35,717 bases of DNA from an uncultured Bacilli bacterium (GTDB lineage Bacteria; Bacillota_I; Bacilli_A; RF39; UBA660). The notes under the pieces were generated by a model, which searched no databases, was not told the origin of the DNA, and saw nothing but the letters and a program-made list of their open reading frames with translations. Position numbers and translations under genes: made by a program. The stretch is from assembly GCA_944358455.1 (NCBI GenBank), contig CALVRE010000031.1, positions 1 to 35,717 of the forward strand. The letters are read 5' to 3'. Positions within the stretch are counted from its first letter, which is position 1, and each line of letters starts with the position of its first letter. This document shows, in pieces, positions 32,588 through 35,538 of this stretch.

Positions 32588-32616
32588 TTGACACTGTCCA
32601 AATCAAATTGTATAAT
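32588..32616 (+). promoter_or_regulatory. Consensus promoter of the NPDTG surface protein
   Basis: TTGACA (32588-32593), 17 bases, TATAAT (32611-32616): perfect consensus at both boxes. A GGATAGGAG-type ribosome-binding site follows. Confidence 0.92.
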
Positions 32617-32648: not shown

Positions 32649-33893
32649 ATGAAGAAAATTGGAATTTTAATGATTACTGTTCTATTATCGATATTAGGAA
32701 TGAGTGGTGTAAGTGCAGCACCAGCTTGGACTAATATGGATAATGCGACTTATCAATTTGTCGATGATGGAACGGGACTCGGTTATTTTGATCTAGCTAT
32801 TTTAGGCGCTTTTGATCAAAGTCATACTTATGATGTGTATTTTGCACGTTCAGCATCTGATGCACCAGATGTAAATACTAGTAGTTTTATTAAAACGACA
32901 GCTAATTCAAGTTCATTGAGAGTAAACTCAGTCAATATTGCTAATAGTCTTTTTGAAGAAGCTGGAGATATCTATGTATGGGTTCGTGAAACGATCGGTA
33001 GCGATAAGCAATTAATTGCTTCTGCTGTCAAAGTGGAAAGACCTGATATCATGTTAAGTAAAAGAATTCAAACGAACTTCCTTTATGACTATACGAGAGT
33101 GAATATTCTATACCCAAGTGATACAAATAATGCGAATCGAACTGTAAAATATAAAATTGGTCGTGTCACGGATTTAAGTATTGTAAGAGCTATGAACACA
33201 ACCGATGAAACACAATTGAAAGCTGCTTTAAATCGTTTACTTGCTTATGCAAAAGCAGATGCTGGTATGCATCAAGGAGAAGTTCAAACTGGACAAACAG
33301 AATCTATTACTAGATATATGCTTGATTTAGAAGATGATGTTTATTATTATGCATATTTAGAAGTAGATACGGAAGATGGTAAATATTATGCGATCGAAGA
33401 CGTCAACTTATATCAAGGTCTTAACTGTGAATTAAATCCTAGTTTAAATAATTATACACTTCCAGAATTTAAATGGCCTGATGATTATAGTTGTGAAATT
33501 GTTGATGGTGTATATTATGATAAAGAAGGTAATGTTGTAGATGAAGAGACTTACAACAGAGAATGTAACCCAGTAGAAGAAAAACATGTATGTGAAATCG
33601 TCGATGGTAAATATTACGGAAAAGACGGTGTAGAAGTATCTGAGGATGTTTATAATGAAGAATGTGGTGAAGTAACTCCACCTATCTGTGAAATTATCGA
33701 CGGAAAATACTATGGAAAAGATGGTGTTGAAATCGATAAGGAAACATATGATAAAGAATGTGGAACTGATGAACCAGTAGATAACCCAGATACAGGAATT
33801 TATATTGGTTATGGAATTGCCGCAATTGGTGTCTTAGCTGGTGTTGGAGCTTATTTACACTTTAAAAAAGAAGGAAAATTCCCACAAGCCTAA
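32649..33893 (+). CDS. Sortase-anchored surface protein with NPDTG signal and three Cys repeats
   Basis: This 414-residue secreted protein is predicted to be attached to the cell wall. A signal peptide (1-24, ending SGVSAA) is followed by a soluble domain (25-280) that I do not recognise. Three tandem units start at C282, C315 and C347, with pattern C-EI-DG-YY-K-G-(12-13)-C and one Cys at each end. The C-terminus has NPDTG (379-383), a hydrophobic stretch (about 384-404) and a Lys-rich tail: a complete sorting signal of the NPxTG type used by class B-like sortases. The sortase gene follows directly. The promoter is near perfect with an adjacent 0A box. The repeats probably form a disulphide-braced stalk. 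Confidence 0.85.
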   Translation: MKKIGILMITVLLSILGMSGVSAAPAWTNMDNATYQFVDDGTGLGYFDLAILGAFDQSHTYDVYFARSASDAPDVNTSSFIKTTANSSSLRVNSVNIANSLFEEAGDIYVWVRETIGSDKQLIASAVKVERPDIMLSKRIQTNFLYDYTRVNILYPSDTNNANRTVKYKIGRVTDLSIVRAMNTTDETQLKAALNRLLAYAKADAGMHQGEVQTGQTESITRYMLDLEDDVYYYAYLEVDTEDGKYYAIEDVNLYQGLNCELNPSLNNYTLPEFKWPDDYSCEIVDGVYYDKEGNVVDEETYNRECNPVEEKHVCEIVDGKYYGKDGVEVSEDVYNEECGEVTPPICEIIDGKYYGKDGVEIDKETYDKECGTDEPVDNPDTGIYIGYGIAAIGVLAGVGAYLHFKKEGKFPQA

Positions 33894-33896
33894 TAT

Positions 33897-33928
33897 AAAA
33901 GACTTCCAATAATTTGGAAGTCTTTTTC
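33897..33928 (+). terminator. Intrinsic terminator between surface protein and sortase
   Basis: AAAAGACTTCCAA (33897-33909) pairs perfectly with TTGGAAGTCTTTT (33914-33926) around TAAT. The sortase start is only 15 bases further on, so the sortase probably depends on readthrough. Confidence 0.92.
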
Positions 33929-33942
33929 TAGAAAGGAGTATT

Positions 33943-35538
33943 ATGAAAAAAATATTAATTTACTTGCGAAAAGATACTCTTGTTTTTTCCGACTGTCAAG
34001 ACAAAATCGATGAAAAAAATCTGAATAATACGAATGTAATTGATACTGAAAGATTGGTTTTTAGTGAAGATTATATTTTATCAAATCTGAACCTAGTGGG
34101 ATCCTTTCTAAAACTAGTTGCCATTAAGAATAATATTACAAAAGCAATCATTAAGAAAATGAATGTTACTATCATCAGTCTCAATTTACTAAAAGATGTG
34201 AATGTTATAACAAGTGTTACAATGGAAGAAGATCAAAAATTAACTTATGAAATGATCGAATTATTGATGGATAATCCACATTTAGAGAAGATTAATTGTT
34301 ATTATATGCCATCTTTTCTATTTGAACGTTTGACGATTTATTATCATCGAACTGTTGAGTTACGTAGTGAGAACTTTTTCATAAGTGAGTTTATGGAACA
34401 AAATCATCTTGTAACTTATTCTGATATTTTTTATAAGAAAAAATTGACTATTTGTTGTCCTTTCCGAGAAGAAGACTACGAAGAATTAAAAACTTTTTTT
34501 CAAATAAATAATTGTTTAAAAGAAATTGTTTTTTGTGGATATTCCCACAATTTATTAGTTTCGGTATTATCCTATCTACCACCACGAGTGAAAAATCTTA
34601 AAATTACAATTACACAAATGGATAGTGATGATCTTACTTTCTTAAATGAAATTACTTTTTTAAAACAACTCGAAAAAAAGTATCCGGTTTCGATTCATAT
34701 CCGTTATTCCAAGGCATATAAAGAAAAAAATATTTTAAAGCAAATCAATCTACAGTTTGTAAAGTTCTTTTGTCTGTTTGTTGTAGTCGTAGGATTGTGT
34801 TACTTTTTAGGATATCGTTATCATGAAACAAAAGAAATGGGCCATGTAGAAGCTATTAAAGAGGAATTAAAAGTAATTACAGAAGAAGCTACGGAAGTTA
34901 TCGAGGAGCCAGATCCCGAAGAACCTTCGATCGATTCTTCAGACCCAACGACGAATGCTTATTATACGAATTATACAAGAGTATTATCAGAATTAAAAAA
35001 ACAGAATCAAGATGTAGTTGGTTGGATTAAAGTAGAGAATACCAATATTGATTATCCGGTTTTACAAACAGATGACAATTTATATTATCTCAATCATTCG
35101 TTCGATGGTAAAAAATCTCTATATGGATGGATTTTTGCTGACTATCGCAATCAATTTGATGAGCTAAGTCAAAATACTATTATCTATGGACATAATGTGC
35201 GAGGTACCAACTTATTATTTGGAAGTTTAAAAAATGTATTAGAACCTAGTTGGTATCAAAATGAACAAAATCAAATTTTGAGTTTCCATACTGAAAATGG
35301 AACTTATCGAGGTGAAATTTTCTCTATTTATACGATACCAGTTACCAGTGATTATTTAGTGACTACTTTTTATAGTGATCAATCTTTCAATCAATATGTT
35401 GAAAAGGAAAAAGAGCGTAGTATTTATGATTTTGAGGTTTCAGTTGAACCAGGAGATCATATTTTAACTCTTTCTACTTGTTATCAAGGTGGCGATAATA
35501 GACTAGTCGTTCATGCTAAATTAGTGAAAATAGATTGA
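33943..35538 (+). CDS. Class B-like sortase with a large N-terminal cytoplasmic domain
   Basis: Sortases cut a C-terminal sorting signal and join the protein to the cell wall. The catalytic domain (about 345-531) has class B features: VGWIKVENTNIDYPVLQ, the YGHN His (H417), STC Cys (C513) and NRLVVHAKL Arg (R520). Before it come a membrane segment (about 272-290) and an acidic linker (300-340). Unusually, 270 residues precede the membrane segment, with no signal peptide; they have repeated Leu/Ile-spaced strand-helix units that recall leucine-rich repeats. Typical sortases are about 200-250 residues, so this one is twice that at 531. The natural substrate is probably the NPDTG protein just upstream. 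AGAAAGGAG precedes the ATG. Confidence 0.88.
   Translation: MKKILIYLRKDTLVFSDCQDKIDEKNLNNTNVIDTERLVFSEDYILSNLNLVGSFLKLVAIKNNITKAIIKKMNVTIISLNLLKDVNVITSVTMEEDQKLTYEMIELLMDNPHLEKINCYYMPSFLFERLTIYYHRTVELRSENFFISEFMEQNHLVTYSDIFYKKKLTICCPFREEDYEELKTFFQINNCLKEIVFCGYSHNLLVSVLSYLPPRVKNLKITITQMDSDDLTFLNEITFLKQLEKKYPVSIHIRYSKAYKEKNILKQINLQFVKFFCLFVVVVGLCYFLGYRYHETKEMGHVEAIKEELKVITEEATEVIEEPDPEEPSIDSSDPTTNAYYTNYTRVLSELKKQNQDVVGWIKVENTNIDYPVLQTDDNLYYLNHSFDGKKSLYGWIFADYRNQFDELSQNTIIYGHNVRGTNLLFGSLKNVLEPSWYQNEQNQILSFHTENGTYRGEIFSIYTIPVTSDYLVTTFYSDQSFNQYVEKEKERSIYDFEVSVEPGDHILTLSTCYQGGDNRLVVHAKLVKID

Follow-up and report, generated by a model that had tools for sequence, protein, structure and literature searches.

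The closest described relatives of the protein analysed here are the class B sortases (SrtB, TIGR03064), such as those of Staphylococcus aureus and Bacillus anthracis. In sortases with a single N-terminal transmembrane helix the catalytic domain faces outward, and of the tail that ends the substrate's sorting signal little more is usually said than that it is positively charged and cytoplasmic; it is regarded as a retention stop. The SrtB of B. anthracis, which recognizes an NPKTG motif, requires an aspartate in the P2' position after the motif (PMC11987632). Two further systems bear on the membrane and cytosolic side of sorting. According to the accounts given in later papers, a cytosolic part of the sortase has a function in Enterococcus faecalis (Kline et al. 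2009, cited in PMC11326707 and PMC10107303), and in Streptococcus gordonii a membrane-retained remnant of the substrate is read by another protein, a histidine kinase, via a transmembrane part (Hall et al. 2019, described in PMC11502775 and PMC11326707).

The uncultured order RF39 keeps srtA/B, which the related uncultured orders RFN20 and ML615J-28 do not possess (PMC10868615). We analysed a stretch of 35,717 nucleotides from an uncultured bacterium of this order (family UBA660; contig CALVRE010000031.1), referred to as the window in the following. It encodes a class B sortase with a 270-residue N-terminal part, here called the N-domain, and next to it a putative substrate.

The sortase and its N-terminal domain

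The open reading frame at 33943–35538 on the forward strand codes for 531 amino acids. It starts with ATG and is preceded by a Shine–Dalgarno-like sequence, AGAAAGGAG, at 33930–33938. By sequence the product is a class B sortase: the NCBIfam family TIGR03064 matches residues 345–523 (E 2.4e-49; 167.8 bits at a cut-off of 153.75), SrtB crystal structures match residues ~286–531 in phmmer searches, and together with the alignment these matches delimit a catalytic domain at 34972–35535. The catalytic triad H417 (35191–35193), C513 (35479–35481), and R520 (35500–35502) is invariant in the alignment of the relatives. Residues 272–290 (34756–34812) are the only strong hydrophobic segment (mean Kyte–Doolittle value 2.39) and are also helical in a single-sequence model; a signal peptide was not found at the N-terminus. 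Between this transmembrane helix and the catalytic domain lies an acidic, presumably extracellular linker (residues 291–343, 34813–34971), which varies among the relatives. The protein shares the catalytic domain, the triad, the predicted single N-terminal transmembrane helix, and an NPxTG-type motif in its putative substrate with class B sortases such as those of S. aureus and B. anthracis.

What differs is the part in front of the helix (residues 1–270, 33943–34752), where class B sortases usually have only a short cytosolic tail. The cytosolic part of the E. faecalis sortase is likewise reportedly a short basic tail, as opposed to a folded domain of 270 residues. Since the usual short N-terminus is not found, we set the protein apart as an SrtB variant, the short N-terminus being the usual architecture and not a strict criterion. 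The first-pass annotation, which had described a 270-residue domain preceding the membrane segment of a class B sortase, was correct on this point. It had also placed the domain inside the cell. As sortases of such topology face outward, the first 270 residues should indeed be cytosolic; this placement comes chiefly from what is known of sortases, the positive-inside rule giving modest support with an N-in orientation favoured in 41 of 61 proteins.

No family in Pfam, NCBIfam, or the PDB was found that accounts for the N-domain, and Pfam and NCBIfam gave no match to a nucleotide- or ligand-binding family. The sub-threshold Pfam matches, among them PF18405 SLC25_like (E 0.03), were taken as chance. 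In agreement with the earlier statement that no such arrangement was known, neither these databases nor the open-access papers searched yielded a matching sortase extension, and no sortase with a large domain in the cytosol was described in those papers. The domain is conserved among its relatives, which are 23–38% identical and always fused to a sortase: R141, N154, F185, N189, I195, and Y255 are invariant in these relatives, and an alignment of 61 sequences has 25 positions with conservation of at least 90%, including N31, N48, C119, R141, N154, S160, K165, N189, Y255, Y259, and N263.

The fold of the N-domain may be alpha/beta, possibly LRR-like. AlphaFold2 models, calculated without an alignment from the window sequence only, had mean pLDDT values of 57.7 and 56.5. 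Strands and helices alternate at residues 167–254 as in LRR proteins, and a continuous helix of residues 257–295 (pLDDT mostly 74–97) runs into the membrane. With these low-pLDDT models Foldseek found no match at E below 0.001. The family profile of the N-domain gave a weak match to designed LRRs (E 8e-4 over 53 columns), which a narrower profile (A4) did not reproduce. In contrast to LRR proteins, none of 15 N-domains matched a Pfam LRR family at E up to 1 (Recep_L_domain reached E 0.46 in one of them), and no significant internal repeats were detected by hhalign self-comparison. The sole internal similarity was a duplicated 12-residue motif, hx[FY]SxxYhxxN, with copies at residues 37–48 (34051–34086) and, just before the transmembrane helix, at residues 252–263 (34696–34731; self profile alignment, E 0.01). 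The earlier designation of the domain as LRR-like is therefore not established.

Distribution of the fusion

When residues 1–270 were searched in 60 related genomes, matches of 26–38% identity were obtained in 14 of them, and all matches continue into a long open frame. A profile of 15 N-domains (A1) was then used at four taxonomic levels. N-domain sortases were detected in 134 of the 386 sampled genomes of the host's family. The order-level search was positive for 170/385 genomes, with the same family for every positive among the matches listed, and the class-level and phylum-level searches (22/395 and 7/392 genomes) were positive exclusively within the host's family. No match to the N-domain was found in viral contigs, and PADLOC gave no match to a defence system.

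The first-pass annotation had proposed to look for the domain in other proteins. In all 61 distinct N-domain reading frames, a sample biased toward the best-scoring matches, the sortase active-site motif is present; an N-domain standing alone or joined to another C-terminal partner was not found in the sampled genomes. Copies without the sortase or without part of the N-domain are situated at contig edges or are among a few weak, ambiguous matches; two of the sortase-less copies (G360:C67 and G521:C57), for instance, are cut off by the end of the contig. As one continuous reading frame covers both parts in considerably more than a hundred genomes, an artefactual fusion by gene calling can be ruled out. 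The idea that the N-domain is a mobile module was rejected within the sample, as the positives occur only in the host's family and have no other C-terminal partner.

In one genome of the same genus as that of the window (G001; 89% complete, 5% contaminated) no match was found to an N-domain sortase or to a substrate with the KFPQ tail described below, while an ordinary SrtB and its NPSTGD substrate are present. This suggests joint loss of sortase and substrate, or missing sequence.

Other SrtBs of the family also bear large cytosolic extensions. In L092 (G025:C47) and L102 (G006:C3) the extension is a domain unrelated to the N-domain, in L102 apparently in tandem; L084 has a coiled-coil extension, and L096, L103, L105, and L106 have long charged segments. 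SrtBs with enlarged cytosolic parts seem to be a recurring feature of the host's lineage.

The adjacent substrate gene

Directly upstream of the sortase gene and on the same strand, a reading frame at 32649–33893 encodes a protein of 414 amino acids with a signal peptide, three Cys-bounded CEIVDGKYYGKDG-type repeats, a sorting motif, a transmembrane segment, and a basic tail. It stays below the curated family thresholds of Pfam and NCBIfam. Its sorting signal (33783–33869) was found by a profile with E 2.2e-10, the window sequence itself being part of that profile. The signal opens with an NPDTG motif (33783–33797), which is not followed by an aspartate, and the protein ends with the tail KKEGKFPQA-COOH (33864–33890). 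From these sequence features we regard the protein as the putative, NPxTG-type substrate of the sortase.

A sigma-70-type promoter sequence, TTGACA-17-TATAAT (12/12 consensus positions; consensus match only), lies upstream of the substrate gene at 32588–32616. The gap between the two genes (33894–33942) contains a 13-bp hairpin followed by a T-run (33897–33926; –17.6 kcal/mol, z –6.9). This terminator- or attenuator-like structure was not listed by the terminator scan; it suggests attenuated read-through into the sortase gene. Perfect promoter and intergenic hairpin would fit a high expression of the substrate and a lower expression of the sortase.

A gene coding for an xPxTG motif, a transmembrane segment, and a tail is present within 400 bp of the sortase gene in 48 of the 61 loci. 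The two genes are mostly divergent; they are arranged in tandem in the window and in L069, G200:C1, and G340:C5. For the other 13 loci no adjacent substrate was seen, partly owing to contig ends, and in G007 a substrate of the N-domain-sortase type is located near the end of another contig. Genome-wide, the sorting-signal profile gave significant matches mostly in genomes with an N-domain sortase, from which it was partly built. The substrate ectodomains have no recognizable Pfam domain. Cys-bounded repeats of the form C(E/K)IVDGKYYGKDGxEVxxxxYxxEC precede the sorting signal in the window (33483–33770) and also in L014, L010, and L137, and are possibly a stalk module shared by several unrelated substrates.

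A conserved C-terminal tail

The last nine residues of the 48 substrates follow the pattern [RK]-[KR]-x-x-K-hydrophobic-Y-[KR]-[IV]. Lysine occupies position –5 in 47/48, tyrosine position –3 in 32/48, and isoleucine or valine position –1 in 40/48; the window substrate has a KFPQ variant of this K-hydrophobic-Y-K-I tail. Such a conserved tail distinguishes these substrates from those of class B sortases as described. It also distinguishes them from the substrates of the family's ordinary SrtBs, one of which is encoded in the genome of the window (G000:C13:26213-26908). These enzymes have the same catalytic domain and adjacent substrates too, whereas their N-terminal parts are short or unrelated and their substrates carry NPxTxD motifs and short variable basic tails. 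The 22 sorting signals found beside them read NPxT(S/G/A/Y/F/I)D with tails such as KKIHE or KKLINN, and the neighbour of the ordinary SrtB in the window's genome ends with KKWNYEN. A broad version of the tail motif is present in 42 of the 48 substrates at N-domain loci and in none of these 22 (Fisher p 4e-13); the motif, the classes of tails, and the control loci were all chosen once the data had been inspected.

The sorting motif differs as well. An aspartate follows the motif in one of 48 substrates at N-domain loci as opposed to 20 of the 22 beside ordinary SrtBs, so that the N-domain sortases seem to have dispensed with a contact outside the cell, the one that the B. anthracis enzyme needs. 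The glycine at motif position 5 in 48/48 substrates is not evidence, because the neighbour search in the N-domain loci required T/S-G.

The tails are ~41% identical, whereas the ectodomains are ~27% identical, which is near the value obtained by global alignment of unrelated sequences. Where one genome has several N-domain sortases, the adjacent tails differ. The three paralogues of G142 are accompanied by the tails RKKKLHKI, RKNNKFNKV, and RKSNKVYKI, the two of G340 by RRNNKLYKI and RNKSKFPQI, and in G332 and G200 there are likewise two N-domain sortases with a different tail beside each.

Statistical coupling of the tail to the N-domain

We compared the distances between tails with those between the two parts of the enzyme by partial Mantel tests, which are known to be liberal. 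Tail distances were correlated with N-domain distances given the sortase domain (r 0.55, p 0.0005) and not with sortase-domain distances given the N-domain (r –0.06). The distances of the substrate transmembrane segment and ectodomain showed no preference for the N-domain over the sortase domain, and this speaks against an explanation in which the N-domain is simply the better clock. The preference of the tail persisted with ranks and after dereplication (30 loci, r 0.59). Without the divergent loci it was weaker (r 0.29, p 0.001), and the 11 divergent loci taken by themselves gave no significant result.

Mapped onto trees, the tail classes require six changes on the N-domain tree (mean of shuffled classes 17) and seven on the sortase tree. 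Enzyme and substrate are encoded by neighbouring genes and inherited together; the two values reflect this shared history and hardly separate the two domains.

Proposed recognition on both sides of the membrane

The reading that we favour, tentatively and at slightly less than even odds, is that the N-domain docks the cytosolic tail of the sortase's dedicated substrate, so that recognition takes place on both membrane faces. The enzyme would have its sortase domain outside the membrane and the N-domain inside, and would serve one or few dedicated substrates, usually encoded adjacent to it. After export the substrate would stay in the membrane by its transmembrane segment and tail, and the N-domain would bind the basic C-terminal tail left in the cytosol, in the window the KFPQ variant. 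Docking would keep the substrate next to the enzyme while, on the outer face, the NPxTG motif comes into the active site, where the sortase domain would cleave NPxT-G. It could stand in for one element of the recognition outside the cell on which ordinary SrtBs rely, namely the aspartate after the motif, and keep the pair apart from other SrtB–substrate pairs of the same cell. We infer physical binding and a role in specificity from the tail data. The average net charge of the N-domain is +6 and not acidic, which counts against docking of a basic tail; eight positions carry an acidic residue in 75% or more of the rows despite this average. The first-pass annotation had suggested that an intracellular signal or partner controls the extracellular transpeptidase. 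The idea of a partner survives, with the evidence pointing to the substrate's own tail as the likely candidate. Unlike the S. gordonii system, the candidate reader would then be fused to the sortase and situated in the cytosol.

Part of these observations could be explained differently. The N-domain could serve for localisation or as a scaffold: a partner in the cytosol or at the membrane (Sec/YidC, divisome, or elongation machinery) would tether the sortase and would bind the tails too, hence their conservation. Short N-terminal or cytosolic sortase parts have been linked to localisation in the accounts of E. faecalis (Kline et al. 2009), and the different cytosolic extensions of the family's other SrtBs would be expected if each enzyme were placed differently. 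A universal partner would, however, predict neither a tail that varies inside a single genome according to the subtype of the N-domain nor a tail correlation specific for the N-domain. No candidate partner gene was identified, and we consider this explanation unlikely, though one to be reckoned with. Along the lines of the intracellular signal suggested earlier, a small molecule or signalling protein in the cytosol might act on the transpeptidase by way of the membrane helix, which is less probable still. The conserved polar and charged residues N31, N48, R141, N154, K165, N189, and N263 could form a ligand site and one long helix joins N-domain and transmembrane segment in the single-sequence model, but no ligand-binding family was matched, no conserved signalling gene was noticed adjoining the sortase, and the conserved tail would be left unexplained.

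The tail–domain correlation would also result if the N-domain sensed the by-product of the reaction, the leftover peptide of transmembrane segment and tail (C-peptide), which might inhibit the enzyme or report the flux of surface proteins. For S. gordonii, sensing of a leftover C-terminal peptide by a histidine kinase has been described in the accounts cited above (Hall et al. 2019). In the present protein there is no output domain besides the sortase, and the link by a single helix offers no obvious switch; we rate such sensing as improbable, marginally more so than a cytosolic signal. Finally, enzyme and substrate genes are neighbours with a shared history, and the N-domain could be a lineage-specific stabilising extension without a specific role, with tails conserved by common descent of the substrates only. 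The 25 highly conserved N-domain positions and the higher identity of tails than of ectodomains speak against this, and we regard it as very improbable.

If docking of the tail by the N-domain is accepted, the N-domain sortases might, to put it a little more cautiously, form a sortase class that recognizes its substrate on both membrane sides, the motif outside and the tail inside via a docking domain. The sorting signal's tail in the cytosol would then be a specificity determinant, and sortase specificity could be set inside the cell. Several SrtB–substrate pairs could be insulated pairwise in one small genome, which would account for the separation of substrates in cells that have several similar class B sortases, and a route toward building orthogonal sortase–substrate pairs would be given.

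Other features of the window and its genome

The contig ends (35633–35717, reverse strand) in what looks like the C-terminal end of an IS3-type transposase (GFYNPVRIHSSIGYLSPDQFEKKVEMG), so that the downstream neighbourhood of the sortase gene is cut off. Elsewhere in the same genome, L214 (G000:C18:5398-5973) and L216 (G000:C27:30293-30568) represent proteins of ~500 amino acids with type IV pilin-like N-termini (GFTLIELLAVIIILAVIALIATPLVMNIIE) and BspA-type surface repeats; both have LRR_5 matches over the cut-off.
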